From Alphaproteobacteria bacterium (GTDB lineage: Bacteria; Pseudomonadota; Alphaproteobacteria; Micropepsales; Micropepsaceae): DNA of 46,410 nt. The notes below the pieces were generated by a model. It had not been told where the DNA came from. It did no database searches and saw only the letters and a list, made by a program, of their open reading frames with translations. Where the stretch lies: contig CANJIS010000018.1 in the NCBI GenBank assembly GCA_947474565.1, forward strand, positions 1 to 46,410, read 5' to 3'. This document shows, one piece after another, positions 1,989 to 40,758 of this stretch (its first letter is position 1; every line of letters begins with the position of its first letter). A program made the position numbers and the translations under genes.

Positions 1989-2056
1989 GCGCTAACGCTC
2001 TGGCATGTCCGATAGGACATGCTCGCGCGCCGCTTGGCGGCGCGCTGCATTAGCGC
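1989..2056. repeat. Nested hairpin cluster between convergent genes
   Basis: An outer inverted repeat (GCGCTAA at 1989-1995, TTAGCGC at 2050-2056) encloses two perfect hairpins. One is GCATGTCC/GGACATGC (2003-2010, 2015-2022) with a GATA loop. The other is GCGCGCCGC/GCGGCGCGC (2025-2033, 2037-2045) with a 3-base loop. The outer right arm contains the stop codon of the minus-strand VWA gene. There is no T-run, so it is not a standard intrinsic terminator. It may be a bidirectional transcription barrier, an mRNA 3'-end stabiliser or a dispersed palindromic repeat. Confidence 0.7.
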
Positions 2057-4107
2057 CCCTCAATCTTCCAAGCCAGCAGCAGCGATCCCACGATCATCAG
2101 CAGCGCCGCCCAGGCGGGCAGCAACGGTTGTTGTGTCAGCGACGTGACGCGATAGGCGCCGTTGCGGCGAATGCCGATCCAGTCCGATCCGCTTGCCGCT
2201 TGTCCCGGCACCACGCGGCGAATGCTCGGCGTGCCGTCAGCAAGCCAATGCGTGCCGCCGCCAGTGGCTTCCACCACCGGTTTCAAGATGGTGTCGGTGG
2301 CGCGCATATCGGCCACTTCCTTGGGATTGAGCGGGCCCGCCGCCGTCACCGCGGTCAGTGTGCCATCGGTGACGCGATACAGTCCCAGCTCGCTGACTTT
2401 GAGGGCGCCGCGCCACATGCCGGGGCCGCCCGTGTCGAGCGTGAGCGTCAGATTTTTGCCGGTGGGCGTGGTGATCTTCACCGGCTGCACTGTCTTGGCC
2501 ATGCTGTGGCGGGTGACCACCAACTCGCCATCAGCGACGCTGGCGGTGAGGCTTTCGGATTCCAGCTCCGGCTCTTTCATCAGCCAATGCGCCAACCTGC
2601 GCAGCAATTCCGCCTGCGGCCCGCCGCCTTCAAAGCCGCGCGCCCACAGCCAGGTCTGGTCGGACAGCATTTCCGCCACCCGGCCTTTTTTCACCTGGTC
2701 CAATACCAGCAACGGCTTGTTGCCGGGTCCGCTCATCACTGTCTGTCCTGCCACCGGTGTGGCGCCGATCAGGCGGAACCAGCGGCCCCAGGTGGGCGCG
2801 GCATTGCCGAGATTGCTTTCAGGCAAGCCTCTGGTGACCGGATGCGCCAGGCCAAGCTGCGTCACTAGCGGCTTGAAAGCCTGGGTCGTGATCTCACCGG
2901 TGGGCTGGGCGGGCAACACGCTGGCCAAGGGCGTGCGATAGATGCTGCCCGGACCGGCGAATTCGGGGCCGGACGAAACAAGCAATGCGCCGCCATTTTC
3001 GACATAGCGGGCGATATTGTCGAAATAGAGCATCGGCAGGATGCCCTGTTCGCCATAACGGTCGAAGATCACCAGATCGAACCCGGTCAGTCTTTCGCTG
3101 AACAGTTCGCGGGTTGGGAAGGCGATCAGCGAAAGCTCGTCAATCGGCGTGCCATCCTGTTTTTCCGGCGGACGCAGAATCGTGAAATGCACCAGATCCA
3201 CCGACGGATCGGCCTTCAGGAGGTTGCGCCACACCCGTTCGCCGGCATGAGGCTGTCCCGACACCAGCAGCACCCGCAGCCGGTCGCGCACGCCCGACAC
3301 CGAAACCACGGCGCGGTTGTTCTGCAAGGTGAGTTCGGAGGGGCCCGGCGCGGCGGACAGCTCCACGATATTTTCGCTTTCATGGGCCACCGGAATGGGG
3401 ATGGCCGTATCCTTGCCCACCGGCACGGACCTTGTGCCCAGCGCTTTGCCGTCCACCGCGATATTGACGGCAGCAAAATCGCCGCCGCCGCCGAAATCAT
3501 CCACTCGCACCGTCAACTGTGCCGGCTTGCCGACAATGGCAAAGCGCGCGGCATTGATCACGCTGAGCTTGCGGTCGCGCTCGTCATGGCTGCCCGCGAT
3601 CAGCACCTGCAGCGGCGCTTTCATTTTCACCTGATCGGCAGGCGGTGCGTCATGCACTTCACCGTCGGTGATCATCACCGCGCCGGCGATGCGGGCCGGC
3701 GGCACATCGGCCAGGGCGCTGTTCAGCGCCGCGAAAGCCTCGGTGCCGTTATTCTCGCCGCTGGTGGTGGTGGTGACTTCGGTCTGGCGCACGATCAGGT
3801 CGGGCTGGCCGGCAAGCTGGCTTTTGATTGCCGCCAGCGCCTTTTCCGCCTGCGCGGTCCGGGCCCCGACATTCATGCTCTGGGAGCGGTCCATCACCAG
3901 CGCCACCACATCCGGCAGGGGCACATGGTTCTCTTTCACCAGCACCGGCCCCATCAGCGCGAACAGCAGAATGACGAAGGCAAGGCCACGGGCCCAGGCG
4001 CCGCGCGCCCGCAGCCAGAAACTGGCGGCGGTGATCAGCAAGGCAATCATGCCCAAACCGATAATCAGCGCCAGCGGCAGATGCGGATCGAAAGCCAATC
4101 TTGTCAT
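2050..4107 (-). CDS. VWA-type membrane protein of the MoxR/DUF58 operon
   Basis: A 685-residue membrane protein. Two membrane helices lie near the N-terminus (about 10-32 and 40-58), followed by a von Willebrand factor A-like domain whose metal site DRSQS (D73, S75, S77) is intact. A region around residues 270-420 resembles a class I glutamine-amidotransferase-like fold, often seen in these proteins. One helix (LLMIVGSLLLAW) sits at the extreme C-terminus. It is the last gene of the moxR operon, 7 bases after the DUF4159 gene. By family knowledge, such proteins work with MoxR ATPases in envelope stress or complex assembly. The exact role is unknown. Confidence 0.75.
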   Translation of the reverse strand: MTRLAFDPHLPLALIIGLGMIALLITAASFWLRARGAWARGLAFVILLFALMGPVLVKENHVPLPDVVALVMDRSQSMNVGARTAQAEKALAAIKSQLAGQPDLIVRQTEVTTTTSGENNGTEAFAALNSALADVPPARIAGAVMITDGEVHDAPPADQVKMKAPLQVLIAGSHDERDRKLSVINAARFAIVGKPAQLTVRVDDFGGGGDFAAVNIAVDGKALGTRSVPVGKDTAIPIPVAHESENIVELSAAPGPSELTLQNNRAVVSVSGVRDRLRVLLVSGQPHAGERVWRNLLKADPSVDLVHFTILRPPEKQDGTPIDELSLIAFPTRELFSERLTGFDLVIFDRYGEQGILPMLYFDNIARYVENGGALLVSSGPEFAGPGSIYRTPLASVLPAQPTGEITTQAFKPLVTQLGLAHPVTRGLPESNLGNAAPTWGRWFRLIGATPVAGQTVMSGPGNKPLLVLDQVKKGRVAEMLSDQTWLWARGFEGGGPQAELLRRLAHWLMKEPELESESLTASVADGELVVTRHSMAKTVQPVKITTPTGKNLTLTLDTGGPGMWRGALKVSELGLYRVTDGTLTAVTAAGPLNPKEVADMRATDTILKPVVEATGGGTHWLADGTPSIRRVVPGQAASGSDWIGIRRNGAYRVTSLTQQPLLPAWAALLMIVGSLLLAWKIEGR

Positions 4108-4114
4108 GGCCGGG

Positions 4115-6862
4115 TCATTTCTCGTTACCCAGCCGTTGCAGCATCGCGGGCGCGTGCACCTGATCGGTTTTGTAATTGCCGGTCAGGGCATACATCACCA
4201 GATTGACGCCGAAGCGCAGCGCCATTTCGCGCTGGGCATTGCCGCCCGGCACCGGCTCGTTCATCGGGCGGCCATTGGCATCGATAGCCCAGGCGGCGGC
4301 CCAGTCATTGCCGCCGACGATCACCGGCGAAACACCATCACCACCGCGGGCGGGCGGGCGCTCGCCATTTTTTTCGGCAGGTGGAAGCTTTTCGATCCAG
4401 ACCTGTCCACCTTGCCAGCGGCCGGGAAAATCCTTCAGCAGGTAAAATGTCTTGGTCAGGACATGGTCCGGCGGCACCGGCTCCAGCGGCGGAAGATCCA
4501 ATCCCGCTGTGAGCCGGCGCAGAGTCTGCTCGCCAGGATTGCTGGCGCCGCGCACCGCGCCCAGCGTCAGGTCGCGTGTGTCGAACAGAATGGTGCCGCC
4601 CAGCCGCATATAGTCGGCGACCTTGGATAGAGCTGCGGGAGAAAGGCTCTTCTCGCGCGGGTCCATCGGCCAATAAAGAAAAGGATAAAAGGAGAGATCG
4701 TCGCGGGTGATGTCCACACCCATGGGCTCGACAGGCTCATAAGACGTGCGTGATCGCAGAGCGTTGTTCAATCCCACCAGTCCGGCCCGGCTCACGGCAT
4801 CCACGTCGGGAAGACCGGTGACGACATAGGCGAGGCGGGTGTCCAGCGCCGATGCCATATCGGCGGCAGCGTCGGCGTGGCCGGGGCGCGGCAGCAGGAT
4901 CAGAAACACAAGCGCCGCCGCGGCTCCGCGCGGACGCAAATTATGGAACAGGTTGTAAAGATAGCCGCGCAGCCACAGCGCGATCAGCGCGTCGATGCAC
5001 AACAGGGCGGCGCCCAGCGCGAGCAGCCAAGGCTCCAGCGCCAATGTGTGGATTTCGCCGTAACTCGTGATGCCGGAGACGTTCAGCGGCAGCAGGATGC
5101 TCCCGGCGCCCAAAACATTCAGCGCATTCTCCACACCCTTGGCGCCATACGTGCCCGGCGGATGTTTGGCGGAAATTTCCGTCTTGGCGAAATCGCTGGC
5201 GGAGATGGGCAGCAGATCTGCCGTCGCCGGTCCCAGATGACCGAAGCCGTCCAGCACGTTGATCGGCGCCAGGCTTGTCAGCTGCGCCAGTTCGCCCGCT
5301 GTGGTGCCGCTGGCCAGCGCCAGAATGCGCTTGAGCATATCGACATAGAGTCCCGAGATCGGCAGCGACGACCAGGCGGGGCTGGCAGTGACATGGAACA
5401 GGATGATCCAGCCCTGACCCTGCTCGCGCGCGGTCACCAGCGGCGTGCCGTCTGCCAGCCGTGCCCAGCTGCGGTCATTGGTTTGTGCATTGGGCTCGGC
5501 CAGGATTTGCCGCGCCACCGTCACTTCGTTCGGGATGGCAAGACCGTTGAAGGGGCTGGCGGCGGGAAAGGGTGCCAAACGCTGCGGCCGGTCCCAGGCC
5601 ATGGCGCTGCCCAGATAGCGTCCGCCCACACGCAGCGGCACCGGCACCAGGCTATCTGCGCCGCCGGTGATGCGCGGACCGGCAAAGCGCACCAGCACGC
5701 CGCCACTGGCGATGAATTTTCCCACCGCATCGGCATCGCTGCCGCCGATCCGGGCGACATCGGCCAGCATCAGCACCGAGACATGGCGGGCCAGCAGACC
5801 AGAGATCGTGCCTTTCTGAATTTCAGCGAAAGGTCCCAGCGCCCGCTCCAGATAATAGACATCCGACAAAAGCGGCTGTTCGGTTTCGGTGGTGGAGGCG
5901 GAGACAATGCCGGCCCGCCGCTCCAGCCCGCCGCTGTCCATCAATTGAATCGCGCCGGCTGTTTCTTCGCCGCGAATTTGCAGCCGCACTGTTTGATTGC
6001 GGATTTCCAGCGGCAGGGCGATATGGCCCTGGGCGCGGGTCGTGGCGGTTTTCAGATTAACATCGGCATCGGCCAGGCTTTCGCCGTTGCGTCCGATGGC
6101 GGAGACCACCACGTTGCGCTGCGCGCCGCGATTGGGCCTGATAACGGTGACGGTAAAGCCGGTGCCGTCGCGCACCGGCGGCAGCAATCCCAGCGCGGGA
6201 AGCTGCGGTCCGAAAACGCGCAAGGGACCAATGGCGCTCAGCGCCGCGGCAAAGCTTTTGGCCGCGCCGTCTTCCATGCCGTCGCTCAACCAGAAAATCT
6301 GCGGCTTGGCCGTGAACGCGGCATGCTGAAGCCGGGCCGCCGCCGCCATGCGGTCTCCCGGCCAGGACATCGGCTTTAATTCCCGCGCGGCGCGCGATGC
6401 GGCGCCGGCATCCAGCAGGCTGACGGCAATGTTTTGCGGATCGCTATTCTGCGGATCGGCGGTGGCGATGATGGCGACAGGGCGATCTCCTGCCGTGCGC
6501 AGCAGATCGGCGATGACATCCTGGCGCTGATCCCAATTCTTGGCAGCGGTCCAGCCATTGTCCACCATCAGCACCATCGGGCCGTTGCCGGTTGCTTGCG
6601 GGCTGCGGCCCAGCAAGGGATCGGCCAGTGCGAAAATCAGCAGCGCCGCCGCCAGCAAGCGCAACAGCAGCAGCCACCACGGCGTCAGTGCAGGCGTCTG
6701 TTCTTCATTCTTCAATCCCAGCAGCAGGCGCAGCGGCGGGAAAGCAATGCGGCGCGGTTGGGGCGGCGTGACTTTCAGCAGCCACCACAGCACCGGCAAT
6801 GCGGCCAACCCCGCCAGCACCCAGGGCGCGCCGAAACTCAATTGGGACAAGAGCGCGGGCAA
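4115..6862 (-). CDS. BatA-like/DUF4159 domain membrane protein
   Basis: A 915-residue protein. The N-terminal 85 residues are BatA-like, with two helices and a PPLRLLLGL segment. A VWA-like domain follows whose metal motif is degenerate (DNGWT at 101-105 instead of DxSxS). A long periplasmic-type region with beta-rich segments leads to helices near residues 630-690. The C-terminal about 220 residues are a DUF4159 domain, with RLAYVVTG, FYPFLYWPM and GGTILFDTRD. It starts 2 bases after the DUF58 stop, so the genes are co-translated. It probably scaffolds the same MoxR-dependent envelope system. The function is not established. Confidence 0.8.
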   Translation of the reverse strand: MPALLSQLSFGAPWVLAGLAALPVLWWLLKVTPPQPRRIAFPPLRLLLGLKNEEQTPALTPWWLLLLRLLAAALLIFALADPLLGRSPQATGNGPMVLMVDNGWTAAKNWDQRQDVIADLLRTAGDRPVAIIATADPQNSDPQNIAVSLLDAGAASRAARELKPMSWPGDRMAAAARLQHAAFTAKPQIFWLSDGMEDGAAKSFAAALSAIGPLRVFGPQLPALGLLPPVRDGTGFTVTVIRPNRGAQRNVVVSAIGRNGESLADADVNLKTATTRAQGHIALPLEIRNQTVRLQIRGEETAGAIQLMDSGGLERRAGIVSASTTETEQPLLSDVYYLERALGPFAEIQKGTISGLLARHVSVLMLADVARIGGSDADAVGKFIASGGVLVRFAGPRITGGADSLVPVPLRVGGRYLGSAMAWDRPQRLAPFPAASPFNGLAIPNEVTVARQILAEPNAQTNDRSWARLADGTPLVTAREQGQGWIILFHVTASPAWSSLPISGLYVDMLKRILALASGTTAGELAQLTSLAPINVLDGFGHLGPATADLLPISASDFAKTEISAKHPPGTYGAKGVENALNVLGAGSILLPLNVSGITSYGEIHTLALEPWLLALGAALLCIDALIALWLRGYLYNLFHNLRPRGAAAALVFLILLPRPGHADAAADMASALDTRLAYVVTGLPDVDAVSRAGLVGLNNALRSRTSYEPVEPMGVDITRDDLSFYPFLYWPMDPREKSLSPAALSKVADYMRLGGTILFDTRDLTLGAVRGASNPGEQTLRRLTAGLDLPPLEPVPPDHVLTKTFYLLKDFPGRWQGGQVWIEKLPPAEKNGERPPARGGDGVSPVIVGGNDWAAAWAIDANGRPMNEPVPGGNAQREMALRFGVNLVMYALTGNYKTDQVHAPAMLQRLGNEK

Positions 6863-12585: not shown

Positions 12586-12796
12586 GGCCGGCGGGACGGA
12601 TTCCCCGCAAGTCGCGGCAGGAAAAGGCATTTTCTGCGTCATCGTGCCGCAAGACCCTCGAAATTCGACTCTCTATTTTACCCCGCCAATAGGCATGCTC
12701 CGTCGGGATTCGCGGGGACCGGGCGCGTCACTTCACGCAATTCGGTTCCTCCCGCGAATGTGGCAATAGTCTTCGGTTTCTCAAAGGGTGAATGAC

Positions 12797-13366
12797 GTGA
12801 CAGCTACGACGCACGACGCGGGCACCAGACGCGACTTTCTTTATGTAGCGTCGGGCGCGGTTGGCGCGGTTGGCGCCGCCGCCGCTCTCTGGCCCTTTAT
12901 CGATCAAATGAATCCCTCTGCCGCCGCCCTGGCGCTGGCGACCATCGAAGCCGATGTCGCCGCCATTCAGCCCGGCCAGCAGGTGGTGTTGAAGTGGCGC
13001 GGTCATCCGCTGTTCGTGCGCCGCCGCACCGAAACGGAAATCAGCGAAGCCAAGTCGGTGGACGTGAGCACGCTGCCCGATCCCTTGGCCTTCAATCACA
13101 ATCTTCCCGACAACGCCCCGGCCACCGATGCCAACCGCGCCATCAAGCCGGAATTGCTGGTGCTGATTGGCGTCTGCACCCATCTGGGCTGCACGCCCAC
13201 CGTGGCCACGCCGACCGCGCCGCAGGGCGAATATGGCGGCTGGCTCTGCCACTGCCATGGCTCGCAGTACGACACCTCGGGCCGCATTCGCAAAGGTCCG
13301 GCGCCGCGCAATCTGGAAGTGCCGCCTTATTCCTTCCTGTCTGACACCCGCATCAAGGTCGGCTAA
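12797..13366 (+). CDS. petA: Ubiquinol-cytochrome c reductase Rieske iron-sulfur subunit
   Basis: The Rieske subunit of cytochrome bc1, about 189 residues. It has a twin-arginine signal-anchor ([19 protein letters not shown]). The 2Fe-2S ligands lie in CTHLGC (about residues 131-136) and CHCHGSQYD (about 153-161). GTG at 12797 is the likely start because AAAGGG (12783-12788) lies 8 bases upstream; an in-frame GTG at 12788 is also possible but overlaps that site. It is the first gene of petABC and moves electrons from quinol to cytochrome c1 at the inner membrane. Confidence 0.95.
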
Positions 13367-13377
13367 CGGAGAATTTC

Positions 13378-14634
13378 ATGTCTGGTCCCTCGACCTATAA
13401 TCCCAAGTCTGGCCTTGAGAAGTGGATCGATCAGCGCTTGCCGCTGCCGCGCCTGCTGCACGATACCGTGCACACCTTCCCGACGCCGCGTAACCTGAAC
13501 ATCTGGTACACCTTCGGCGGCATTCTCACTTTCTGCCTTGGCGTGCAGATTCTCACCGGCATTGTGCTGGCGATGCATTACGTCGCCAATGCCGGCCTGG
13601 CCTTCAATTCCGTCGAAAGCATCATGCGCGACGTGAATTACGGCTGGCTGATCCGCTATATCCACGCCAACGGCGCGTCGATGTTCTTCCTCGCCGTCTA
13701 TATCCATATGTTCCGCGGCCTCTATTACGGGTCTTACAAAGCCCCGCGCGAACTGATCTGGATCCTGGGCGTGCTGATCTATCTGCTGATGATGGCCACC
13801 GCTTTCTTCGGTTACGTGTTGCCCTGGGGCCAGATGTCCTTCTGGGGCGCCACCGTCATCACCAACCTGTTCAGCGCCATTCCGGTGATCGGTGGTCATA
13901 TCGCCACCTGGCTGTGGGGCGACTTCGCGGTTGGCGACGCCACCCTGAACCGCTTCTTCTCGCTGCACTATCTGCTGCCCTTCATCATTGCGGGCGTGGT
14001 TGGTCTGCATATCTGGGCGCTGCACGTTCCCGGCAACAACAACCCGCTGGGCATCGACGTGAAGAGCCCGCAGGATACGGTGCCCTTCCACCCCTATTAC
14101 ACGGTGAAGGACGCCTTCTATCTCTGCCTGTTCGTGCTCTTCTTCGCCGCCTTCGTGTTCTATTCGCCGGACTTCTTCGGCAATCCGGACAACTACATTC
14201 CCGCCAATCCGCTGGTGACGCCGCCGGATATCGTGCCGGAATGGTACCTGCTGCCCTATTACGCGATGCTGCGTTCGATCCCGGACAAGCTGATGGGCGT
14301 GATCGTGATGGGCGGCGCCATCGTCACCTTGTTCCTGATCCCGTGGCTGGACACCAGCCGGGTGCGCTCCTGCCGCTTCCGCCCCCTGATGAAGCAGTTC
14401 TTCTGGGGATTTGTGGTGGCGTGCGTTCTGCTCGGCTATTGCGGCGCGCAGAGCGTCGACGCCGTGAAGTTCGGCGTGCCCATGGTCTGGGTCGCCCGTA
14501 TCGCCTCGATCTACTACTACGCCTTCTTCTGGCTCATCCTGCCGATCGTCGGCCTGATCGAGACCCCGAAGAAGCTTCCCGCTTCCATCGCCCAATCCGT
14601 GCTCGGCGACTCCGCCGCTGCCGCTGCCGAGTGA
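13378..14634 (+). CDS. petB: Cytochrome b of the bc1 complex
   Basis: A 418-residue integral membrane protein and core of cytochrome bc1. The haem-ligand helices are recognisable ([43 protein letters not shown]), as is the quinol-site motif [16 protein letters not shown]. The length is normal for an alphaproteobacterial cytochrome b. It starts 11 bases after petA and is followed 8 bases later by petC. A long open frame runs antisense through this gene, but it is a codon-bias shadow. Confidence 0.96.
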
Positions 14635-14642
14635 GAACAAAG

Positions 14643-15443
14643 ATGCGCAAAGTTCTTCCTCTCGCTCTTCTGGCCGGTCTGCTGGCCTCCACCTCGGCCT
14701 TCGCGGCCGAGGACACGGCCCGCCGCCCGGTGAAGGACGTGACCTTCTCGTTCGAAGGTCCGTTCGGCACCTATGACCGCGCCGCTCTGCAGCGCGGTTT
14801 CCAGGTCTACAAAGAAGTCTGCGCCACCTGCCACGGCCTGGACCATGTTGCGTTCCACGCTCTGAATGAAGAAGGCGGCCCGGGCTTCTCCGAAGCTCAG
14901 GCCAAGGCCATTGCTGCCGGCTACAAGATCCCGGCCGAGCCGAACGACAAGGGCGAGCTGTTCAATGACCAGGGCGTGCGCCTGACCCGTCCGGGCATCC
15001 TGGCCGACGCGTTCCCCAATCCCTTCCCCAATGAACAAGCTGCCCGCGCCGGCAATGGCGGCAAGCTGCCGCCCGATCTGTCCATGATCACCAAGGCCCG
15101 CATGGGCGGCGCGAAGTATGTCTATTCGATCCTCACCGGCTTCCATGAGCAGAAGCCGGCTGACTTTGAGGTGCCGGAAGGGGCTTACTTCAATCCCTAC
15201 TTCGAAGGCTGGGCGATCGGCATGCCGAATACCGCCCTAGGCGCCAATGCCGTGACCTATTCCGACGGCACCAAAGCCACCATCGAGCAGGAAGCCCATG
15301 ACGTGTCGACCTTCCTGGAATGGGCCGGCGAACCCAAGATGGAACAGCGCAAAAGCATGGGCCTGTCGGTCCTGATCTTCCTGGTCGTTCTGTCCGGCAT
15401 TCTGTTTGCCGCCTATCGCAAGATCTGGAAGGACGCGCACTGA
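14643..15443 (+). CDS. petC: Cytochrome c1
   Basis: A 266-residue protein. It has a cleavable signal peptide (MRKVLPLALLAGLLASTSAFA), the haem c attachment motif CATCH (about residues 54-58), the axial methionine region (EGWAIGMPN) and a C-terminal membrane anchor (LSVLIFLVVLSGILFAAY). It is the last gene of petABC. The ATG at 14643 is chosen because it begins the signal peptide; the open frame continues upstream inside petB. A hairpin and a terminator follow the stop. Confidence 0.95.
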   Translation: MRKVLPLALLAGLLASTSAFAAEDTARRPVKDVTFSFEGPFGTYDRAALQRGFQVYKEVCATCHGLDHVAFHALNEEGGPGFSEAQAKAIAAGYKIPAEPNDKGELFNDQGVRLTRPGILADAFPNPFPNEQAARAGNGGKLPPDLSMITKARMGGAKYVYSILTGFHEQKPADFEVPEGAYFNPYFEGWAIGMPNTALGANAVTYSDGTKATIEQEAHDVSTFLEWAGEPKMEQRKSMGLSVLIFLVVLSGILFAAYRKIWKDAH

Positions 15444-38398: not shown

Positions 38399-39406
38399 TC
38401 AGTGATATCCGATTTCGCCCCGAGCCTTGCCGCGGAACACCCAATAAGACCAGGCGGTGTATATCAGGATCACCGGCAGCAGGAACAGCGTTCCCACGCC
38501 CAGGAATATCTGGGTATCTGGCGATGACGCCGCCTGCCACAGCGTATAGTGGTGCGGCACGATCATGGGAAACAGGCTGATGGCGATCCCAAGATAGGAA
38601 AGACTGAACAGGCAGATCGCGTAAAGAAACGGAGTCAGTTCCGCTTTCGGGTTGGCGATGGCGCGCAACTCCAGCACCGCGAAAAGGGCCGTGAGCAAGG
38701 GCACCGGACTCAGGAGCGCGATATTGGGCCATGAGAACCAGCGATGCGCGATATCGCCATCCATCCATGGCGTCCACAGACTGACGATGCCGACGGCTAC
38801 AAGGGTCCCCAGGAAACAGAACCGCGCTTGAGCCCGCGCCTTTTTCTGCAGGTCACCTTCCAGCTTCAGGATCAGCCAGCCCGCGCCCAGCAGGCCATAG
38901 CCCAGCACCAGCGCCAGGCCGGTGAACAAGGAGAAAGGCGTGATGCAGTCGAAGGTGCTGCCGGTGAAATGCCGCCCTTCCACTTGAAAGCCTTGAATGA
39001 AAGCGCCCAGCACCACGCCCTGGGCGAATGTCGCCACCGTCGAGCCATAGCCGAAAGCATGGTCCCAGAAGCCGCGATGCTCCTGGTCGCGGAAATGAAA
39101 TTCAAACGCCGCGCCGCGGAAAATCAGCGCCAGCAGCATGACCAGGATGGGAAAATAAACCGCCGGAATGATGATGGCGAACGCCAGCGGAAACGCCGCC
39201 AGCAATCCCAAGCCGCCCAGCACCAGCCAGGTCTCGTTGCCATCCCAGATCGGCGCGATGGAATTCATCATCAGGGTGCGCGCCTGCCGTGTGGGGGCGA
39301 AATTGTAGAGAATGCCGACACCCAGATCGAAACCATCCAGCAAAACATAGAGGAAGACCGCAAGGCCCAGGATCAGCGTCCAGACCGGCACGAAATCGAA
39401 AATCAT
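38399..39406 (-). CDS. cydB: Cytochrome d ubiquinol oxidase subunit II
   Basis: A 335-residue protein with about eight helices. LYVLLDGFDLGVGIL near the N-terminus and APIWDGNETWLVLGGLGLLAAFP are CydB hallmarks. It is the second subunit of a cytochrome bd-type (probably cyanide-insensitive CioB-like) quinol oxidase, which reduces oxygen at low concentration. Its ATG overlaps the original cydA stop at 39403 (ATGA), which matters for judging the cydA break. Confidence 0.93.
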   Translation of the reverse strand: MIFDFVPVWTLILGLAVFLYVLLDGFDLGVGILYNFAPTRQARTLMMNSIAPIWDGNETWLVLGGLGLLAAFPLAFAIIIPAVYFPILVMLLALIFRGAAFEFHFRDQEHRGFWDHAFGYGSTVATFAQGVVLGAFIQGFQVEGRHFTGSTFDCITPFSLFTGLALVLGYGLLGAGWLILKLEGDLQKKARAQARFCFLGTLVAVGIVSLWTPWMDGDIAHRWFSWPNIALLSPVPLLTALFAVLELRAIANPKAELTPFLYAICLFSLSYLGIAISLFPMIVPHHYTLWQAASSPDTQIFLGVGTLFLLPVILIYTAWSYWVFRGKARGEIGYH

Positions 39407-39525
39407 CGCGTGCCTCCCGCCAATGGCTTGGCCGGGGCATCGTTATGCTGTTTCACGCCACCCTGCACCATGCGCAGCATCACCCACAGGCCGGTCGGAA
39501 ACATCACGGCATAGACCAGAACATA
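39403..39525 (-). pseudogene. Detached C-terminal segment of cydA
   Basis: Reading on through the TGA at 39526-39528 in the cydA frame gives 40 codons that begin YVLVYAVMFPTGLWVMLRMV, the normal last membrane helix of CydA/CioA. They end at a TGA overlapping the cydB ATG. This shows the ancestral cydA frame ran to 39403. Confidence 0.85.
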
Positions 39526-40758
39526 TCACGTCAGAGAGATCAGGACGTCCAGGCCGGTCAGTGACGGTGTGACGGATTGCGCTGTGCGCATCACGCCATA
39601 AACCGTCCAGGGTTGGCGACCGACTTCGGTTGTTGTCCAGCCCGCCACCACGGCGATGAAACCCAGCGGCGAAGCCAGCATCAGGGCGCGCAAATACCAG
39701 GCGCGGTCATAAAGGTGCCTGGAAAATCGCAGCCATAATCCGGCGGCGATCAGCGCGAGCATGAGAAGTCCAATGCCCACCATGATGCGAAAGGCAAAAA
39801 ACGTAATCGCCACCGGGGCCCGGTCCTGGCGCGGAAATTCCTTCAGGCCGGGCACCACGCCATTGGCATCATGGGTGAGGATCAGGCTGCCCAGGTTGGG
39901 CACGTCAATCGCATAGTGATTGGTCTCGGCCTTCTGATCGGGAATGGCGAACAGGGTCAGCGGCGCATGCGCCCCGCGTTCCCAATGCGCTTCAATCGCG
40001 GCCAGCTTGGCGGGCTGGTATTGGAATGTGTTGATGCCGTGCTGGTCGCCCAGGAATATCTGCAGCGGCACCAGCAGGGTCAAAAGCCACAGCGTCACCG
40101 ACAGCATCAGCTTGGCATCGCACACGGATTTCTTCCGCAGCAGCAGATAGGCGGCCACGCCCATCACGACAAAACCGGTGGTGACATAAAAAGCGGTGAC
40201 GGTATGCAGGAAGCGGTAAGGGAACGATGGGTTGAAGATGATCGCCATCCAGCTGGTGGGATGGAAAATGCCGTCTTCGATCCGATAACCCGCCGGGGTC
40301 TGCATCCAGCTATTGGTCACCAGAATCCAGAAGGATGAAAACAGGGTTCCCGCCGCCACCATAAACGCCGCGCCGAAATGCGCCCAGGGCGGCACCAGCT
40401 TGCGCCCGAACAGCAGCACTCCGAGGAAGCCCGCCTCCAACGTGAAAGCCGTCAATCCTTCATAGGCCAGCATGGGTGACAGAATATTGGCCGTGGCGTC
40501 GGAAAATCGGCTCCAATTGGTGCCCAGCTGGAATGGCATCACCACCCCGGAGACGACGCCCATGCCGAAGGCGACTGCGAAAATTCGGGTCCAGAAGGTT
40601 GAGATGCGCAGCCAGCTTTCGCGGCCGGTGAAAAAGAAAACGCCTTCCAGCAGCGCGATATAGGACGCCAGCCCGATGGTCATGGCAGGAAGCAGGATGT
40701 GCCAGGCGATAACCCAGGCAAATTGCAACCGGGACAGGACAAGCGGGTCCAGCGTCAT
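39526..40758 (-). CDS. cydA: Cytochrome d ubiquinol oxidase subunit I, truncated by in-frame TGA
   Basis: 410 residues as read. The haem- and quinol-binding regions are present: the N-terminal WVIAWHILLPAMTIGLASY, GLTAFTLEAGFLGVLLFG, the short Q-loop GDQHGINTFQYQPAKLAAIE and FFAFRIMVGIG. The short Q-loop fits the CioA type. The frame stops at TGA codon 411, before the last membrane helix, whose codons follow intact. The full protein would have about 451 residues. If the stop is real, the oxidase is probably impaired; a sequencing error is possible. Confidence 0.85.
   Translation of the reverse strand: MTLDPLVLSRLQFAWVIAWHILLPAMTIGLASYIALLEGVFFFTGRESWLRISTFWTRIFAVAFGMGVVSGVVMPFQLGTNWSRFSDATANILSPMLAYEGLTAFTLEAGFLGVLLFGRKLVPPWAHFGAAFMVAAGTLFSSFWILVTNSWMQTPAGYRIEDGIFHPTSWMAIIFNPSFPYRFLHTVTAFYVTTGFVVMGVAAYLLLRKKSVCDAKLMLSVTLWLLTLLVPLQIFLGDQHGINTFQYQPAKLAAIEAHWERGAHAPLTLFAIPDQKAETNHYAIDVPNLGSLILTHDANGVVPGLKEFPRQDRAPVAITFFAFRIMVGIGLLMLALIAAGLWLRFSRHLYDRAWYLRALMLASPLGFIAVVAGWTTTEVGRQPWTVYGVMRTAQSVTPSLTGLDVLISLT

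Follow-up and report, generated by a model that had tools for sequence, protein, structure and literature searches.

The interrupted cydA frame

The DNA analysed here, referred to as the window, is a stretch of 46,410 nucleotides (bases 1-46,410 of contig C18) from a draft genome of 2.18 Mb that is held in 39 contigs and is estimated to be 99.84% complete. A cydA frame lies on the minus strand at 39403-40758, more than 5 kb from the window end, and runs into cydB. Translated, this frame has 410 sense codons, then a TGA at codon 411, then another 40 sense codons that end in a second TGA. The features discussed below are as follows.

39526-40758, minus strand: the 410 codons of cydA, for a CioA-like cytochrome bd subunit I, that lead up to the premature TGA; these include the haem-ligand equivalents and GRQPW
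39526-39528, minus strand: premature in-frame TGA, codon 411, next base T (translation, profile search and homologue alignment)
39406-39525, minus strand: rest of the cydA frame, 40 codons, predicted to encode the C-terminal tail and the greater part of the last transmembrane helix (translation, model, profile and structure comparison)
39430-39435, minus strand: codons 442-443, junction at which about nine in-frame codons are missing, those of the GRPxxPV tail motif of relatives (hand alignment to L114, a locus of one of the four nearest relatives)
39413-39418, minus strand: GGGAGG, likely ribosome-binding site of cydB within the cydA tail (by eye)
39403-39405, minus strand: TGA at the original end of cydA, sharing ATGA with the cydB start (cydB ATG at 39406-39404; from the sequence)
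38399-39406, minus strand: cydB, open, 335 amino acids (open reading frame and Pfam)
12788-15443: cytochrome bc1 operon with genes for the Rieske protein, cytochrome b (13378-14634) and cytochrome c1 (14643-15443), each an open frame matched by Pfam

Residues 8-409 of the cydA product match PF01654 (Cyt_bd_oxida_I) with 500.4 bits, the cut-off (gathering score) being 26.2, and the cydB product matches Cyt_bd_oxida_II with 308.3 bits (Pfam). This is the only PF01654 match in the 2.18-Mb draft genome, and the match itself is flagged as having one TGA inside it. The residues H20, H185 and M326 and the GRQPW segment are invariant across a 12-sequence alignment, and the three residues align to H19, H186 and M393 of E. 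coli CydA (6rko_A), which we take to be the haem ligands. All of these positions lie upstream of the premature TGA. A scan of the sequence for promoters and terminators returned no more than is expected by chance. The gene resembles known cytochrome bd subunit I genes (CydA/CioA) in its family match, its catalytic segments and its operon with cydB, but its protein ends after residue 410, inside the last helix, and is without the tail motif of near relatives.

A profile of 12 sequences was built from this CydA, read through the TGA, and 11 relatives. Its positions 408-439 align with residues 474-505 of 6rko_A, near the C-terminus of that protein, and in the six remaining distinct solved CydA sequences it extends to a comparable point (the alignments are shown for four of the seven). 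In a structural model of the read-through protein, whose mean pLDDT of 65.8 corresponds to moderate confidence, the last helix spans residues 402-433, and the model compares with ten solved CydA chains at Z scores of 34.0-38.4. Normal translation is predicted to leave the last transmembrane helix incomplete, since it stops after residue 410, some nine residues inside the modelled helix. According to the model, what is lost from the product is most of the last transmembrane helix together with the C-terminal tail. An earlier note on this DNA had reported the TGA at codon 411 and the 40 additional codons that end in a TGA overlapping the cydB ATG, and translation of the minus strand (39526-39528) confirms both. 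Its claim that the frame runs on into the expected last helix is supported by the read-through model and by the profile and structure comparisons. The TGA had been placed just before that helix, whereas in the model, at moderate confidence, it falls inside it.

Reading of the TGA

An in-frame UGA that is followed by conserved coding sequence is a feature shared with selenocysteine genes and with other genes recoded by readthrough. Unlike those genes, the present one has no recoding machinery over the cut-offs in its genome, no stable structure downstream of the UGA and no other aligned homologue with a UGA at this site. In the draft genome the best SelB candidate scored 110.6 against a TIGR00475 cut-off of 242.25, and the best tRNA-Sec candidate scored 46.0 bits against an RF01852 cut-off of 47. 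ARAGORN reads the latter as a tRNA-Ser, and the other nine candidates likewise as ordinary tRNAs. None of the 43 tRNA matches, all of which were read with ARAGORN, has a UCA anticodon or is a suppressor tRNA, in a draft tRNA set that is incomplete (no tRNA-Ile was seen). The anticodon of tRNA-Trp is CCA, and prfB, which encodes release factor RF2, is present with 512 bits. No SECIS-like or otherwise stable stem-loop was found at the TGA: the 81-nt fold has a z-score of +1.49, and 189 of 200 shuffled sequences were at least as stable. No Rfam family matches the window.

The wider genome was examined with stops read through, and none of 35 ABC-transporter domain matches contained an internal stop; the COX1, COX3 and prfB matches were also free of them. 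The window genes hold no stop in 8,001 codons over 17 stretches, which were chosen as open frames and so carry no evidence on the code. A genetic code in which UGA is a sense codon is rejected on the lack of a UCA tRNA among the matches, the presence of RF2 and the stop-free ABC-transporter domains. Selenocysteine is rejected as well, since SelB and tRNA-Sec stay below their cut-offs and the fold at the TGA is weaker than that of most shuffles. The same observations bear out the view of the earlier note that TGA is an ordinary stop here. They lend no support to its suggestion that the oxidase may be made only by readthrough, as neither a SECIS-like fold, nor selenocysteine machinery over cut-off, nor a suppressor tRNA was found in the draft.

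Constraint and the codon-411 site among relatives

The part of cydA before the stop, which we will call the body, has pn/ps values of 0.19-0.29 against the four nearest relatives, and the values among those four are 0.17-0.37. Its leave-one-out profile score is 762.2 bits, with 12 of 44 relatives scoring lower. These 44 are the 45 sequences of at least 60% identity minus one partial sequence (L132). On these comparisons the body reads as a normal CydA under ordinary purifying selection, like its relatives. The results for the last helix are mixed. The helix past the stop scores 42.2 bits (12 of 44 relatives are lower), and its pn/ps is 0.39-1.18 against the four nearest relatives and 0.21-0.96 among those four, with only 24 codons in the comparison. 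The divergence of the helix in this lineage is matched by none of 386 overlapping 24-codon sliding windows, and it ranks 4 of 45 when set against 44 homologues. We do not claim decay of the helix, which appears not clearly decayed, because the rank is only 4 of 45 and the profile score is typical.

The C-terminal tail scores 3.6 bits, and only three of 44 relatives score lower, all three among the most distant. This low score is due to the roughly nine codons with the GRPxxPV motif that are missing in frame. The strict GRPxxP pattern is found in 32 of 46 distinct sequences of at least 60% identity (window included) and in all eight of the nearest relatives (73.6% identity or more). Judged by eye, 13 of the 14 sequences without it still carry a variant form of the segment, weakest in the most distant ones, and the fourteenth, that of the window, lacks it. 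We know of no function for the GRPxxPV motif. The junction at 39430-39435 was placed by hand alignment to L114, and in the MAFFT alignment the gap begins earlier by two codons. By eye, L114 has near-repeats on either side of the stretch that the window lacks, an arrangement that would suit a slippage deletion. The tail is standard only in part: the helix and the cydB overlap are kept, but the tail motif of relatives, on whose absence the earlier note had not remarked, is missing. Loss of the motif hints weakly at relaxed constraint on the tail, and relaxed constraint would in turn be modest evidence that the stop is real. A tail that has ceased to be translated would be expected to lose such a motif.

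The site itself was compared across 145 fetched loci, those in which the best tblastn alignment spans codon 411; they correspond to 134 distinct segments, and loci that gave no such alignment are uncounted. A stop is found at the site in one of these segments, the window's own, and the other 133 have a sense codon. The residues at the site are A (49), G (34), L (20), M (11), I (11), V (4), S (2), C (1), T (1) and stop (1). The four nearest relatives have glycine encoded by GGT, GGT, GGC and GGT, and GGA makes up 10% of the glycine codons counted in the window genes. Given the wide variation in this column, the GGT and GGC codons of the near relatives and the 10% share of GGA, the GGA-to-TGA path that the earlier note gave as an example is not established. 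Its broader proposal, a single nonsense change, in a gene that is otherwise intact, is still the simplest explanation for the stop.

In a set of 100 related genomes PF01654 is found in 56, this one included, and only the present match has an internal stop. In a class-wide set of 385 genomes there are 160 with PF01654, again counting this one, and among the matches listed the internal stops are this TGA and one TAG (in genome G433), so that the lesion count is at least two. One homologue survey used residues 1-410 and is blind to stops in the tail, whereas the PF01654 searches of both genome sets can show them. Lesions in cydA thus occur in other genomes, and none other was seen at the codon-411 site. 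The TAG in G433 (locus L217) belongs to a different alphaproteobacterial CydA and lies in a locally garbled stretch, probably with compensating frameshifts. In a congener, G042 (locus L218), the CydA is found in two reading frames with a break between query residues 83 and 102.

Respiratory context and the fate of the bd oxidase

The gene order trpS-cydA-cydB-SDR-folB-uvrC is common to three of the four nearest relatives (L032, L034 and L033). In L032 and L034 glnD lies in front, as it does in the window, and L033 matches from trpS on; the fourth (L066/L114) has none of these neighbours in the compared stretch. Across 11 distinct loci trpS directly precedes cydA in five and lies about 1.2 kb away in one, and five (L066/L114 and four more distant loci) have no such neighbours in the compared stretch. 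Since the order is kept in three of the four nearest relatives, cydA looks resident in this lineage. The genome also has COX1 (546 bits), COX2 and COX3 together with a UbiA-family (CtaB-like) gene, all of them open, which we read from their sequences as a putative aa3-type oxidase. A second lesion in the bc1 operon was considered and rejected, as neither the cytochrome b nor the cytochrome c1 gene is interrupted and both have Pfam matches. Among 59 other genomes of the genus PF01654 is found in 38 and gave no match in 21, some of which are incomplete. With the genes of another oxidase and of bc1 open and cydA patchy in the genus, loss of the bd oxidase is plausible.

With a probability of roughly 0.6, we consider the best explanation to be a recent nonsense mutation at codon 411 of the sole cydA, most likely one that leaves a dispensable bd oxidase inactive. 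The mutation would have arisen, probably recently, in the only cydA of the genome, and ribosomes would be released at the TGA with RF2. The resulting CydA of 410 residues would keep the haem-ligand equivalents and lack most of the last helix and the tail, and CydB would still be made from its own likely ribosome-binding site. The truncated CydA would most likely be unassembled or unstable, leaving the bd oxidase lost or badly impaired and respiration running via bc1 and the aa3-type oxidase. The evidence against this explanation is that the helix past the stop scores like that of the relatives and that the frame to cydB is open. Premature stops in the oxidase genes ccoN and cyoA2 are described for Bordetella pertussis (PMC11257404). 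The likeness is that one oxidase is lost by a premature stop and another is kept; the present case differs in that it comes from one draft genome and that the stop lies very close to the 3' end of the gene.

The main rival to a nonsense mutation is an error in the consensus or assembly, or an allele carried by a minority of the population that was sampled, such that most cells would have a sense codon and a working oxidase. We regard this as rather unlikely. The draft assembly is spread over 39 contigs, neither the body nor the last helix shows clear decay, and with the frame and the ATGA overlap kept one wrong base could suffice; yet the absence of stops from the 35 ABC-transporter domain matches and from the COX1, COX3 and prfB matches argues that such errors are not common, and the tail motif is missing too. 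We judge it improbable that the 410-residue CydA works, which would mean that this CioA-like enzyme can do without its last helix. The haem-ligand equivalents and GRQPW do precede the stop and the body is constrained, but the other 133 distinct homologues continue past the site, in a comparison whose requirement for an alignment across the site is biased against shorter ones. The peripheral helix of CydA is presumably the ninth, and if so some activity without the last helix is conceivable. Two reports describe the architecture of CydA as a pair of four-helix bundles with one further, peripheral helix (PMC6853902, PMC8951039).

A very improbable alternative is that near-cognate tRNA-Trp or some other recoding event lets ribosomes pass the TGA, rarely or in a regulated way, so that some full-length CydA is made. 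The frame is open to the cydB overlap and the helix is still recognisable, as would be needed. Against this stand the presence of RF2, the lack of SelB and tRNA-Sec matches over cut-off and of a UCA anticodon in the 43 tRNA matches of the incomplete draft set (the one in which no tRNA-Ile was seen), an RNA at the stop that folds worse than most shuffles (z +1.49), the missing tail motif and the next base, which is U, whereas the leaky context of UGA is UGAC. Readthrough of UGA is given as 0.04-0.08% in two pseudomonads and as up to about 12% at a UGA in E. coli (PMC9481147), and the E. coli value speaks in favour of this alternative. We also give little credence to a bd oxidase that works without most of the last CydA helix or with traces of readthrough CydA, for which the stop would be a form of dosage control, not a knockout.

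If the nonsense mutation is real, the window would be a snapshot of a genome losing an alternative oxidase, which fits the patchy occurrence of cydA across the genus. A truncated enzyme that worked would test the need for the last helix of CydA. An annotation that relied on the family match would list a bd oxidase even though the enzyme may not work.

Elsewhere in the window, an open reading frame of 685 amino acids (2050-4107) that has no Pfam match at E 0.001 is adjoined at 4115-6862 by a gene encoding a BatA plus DUF4159 protein of 915 amino acids.
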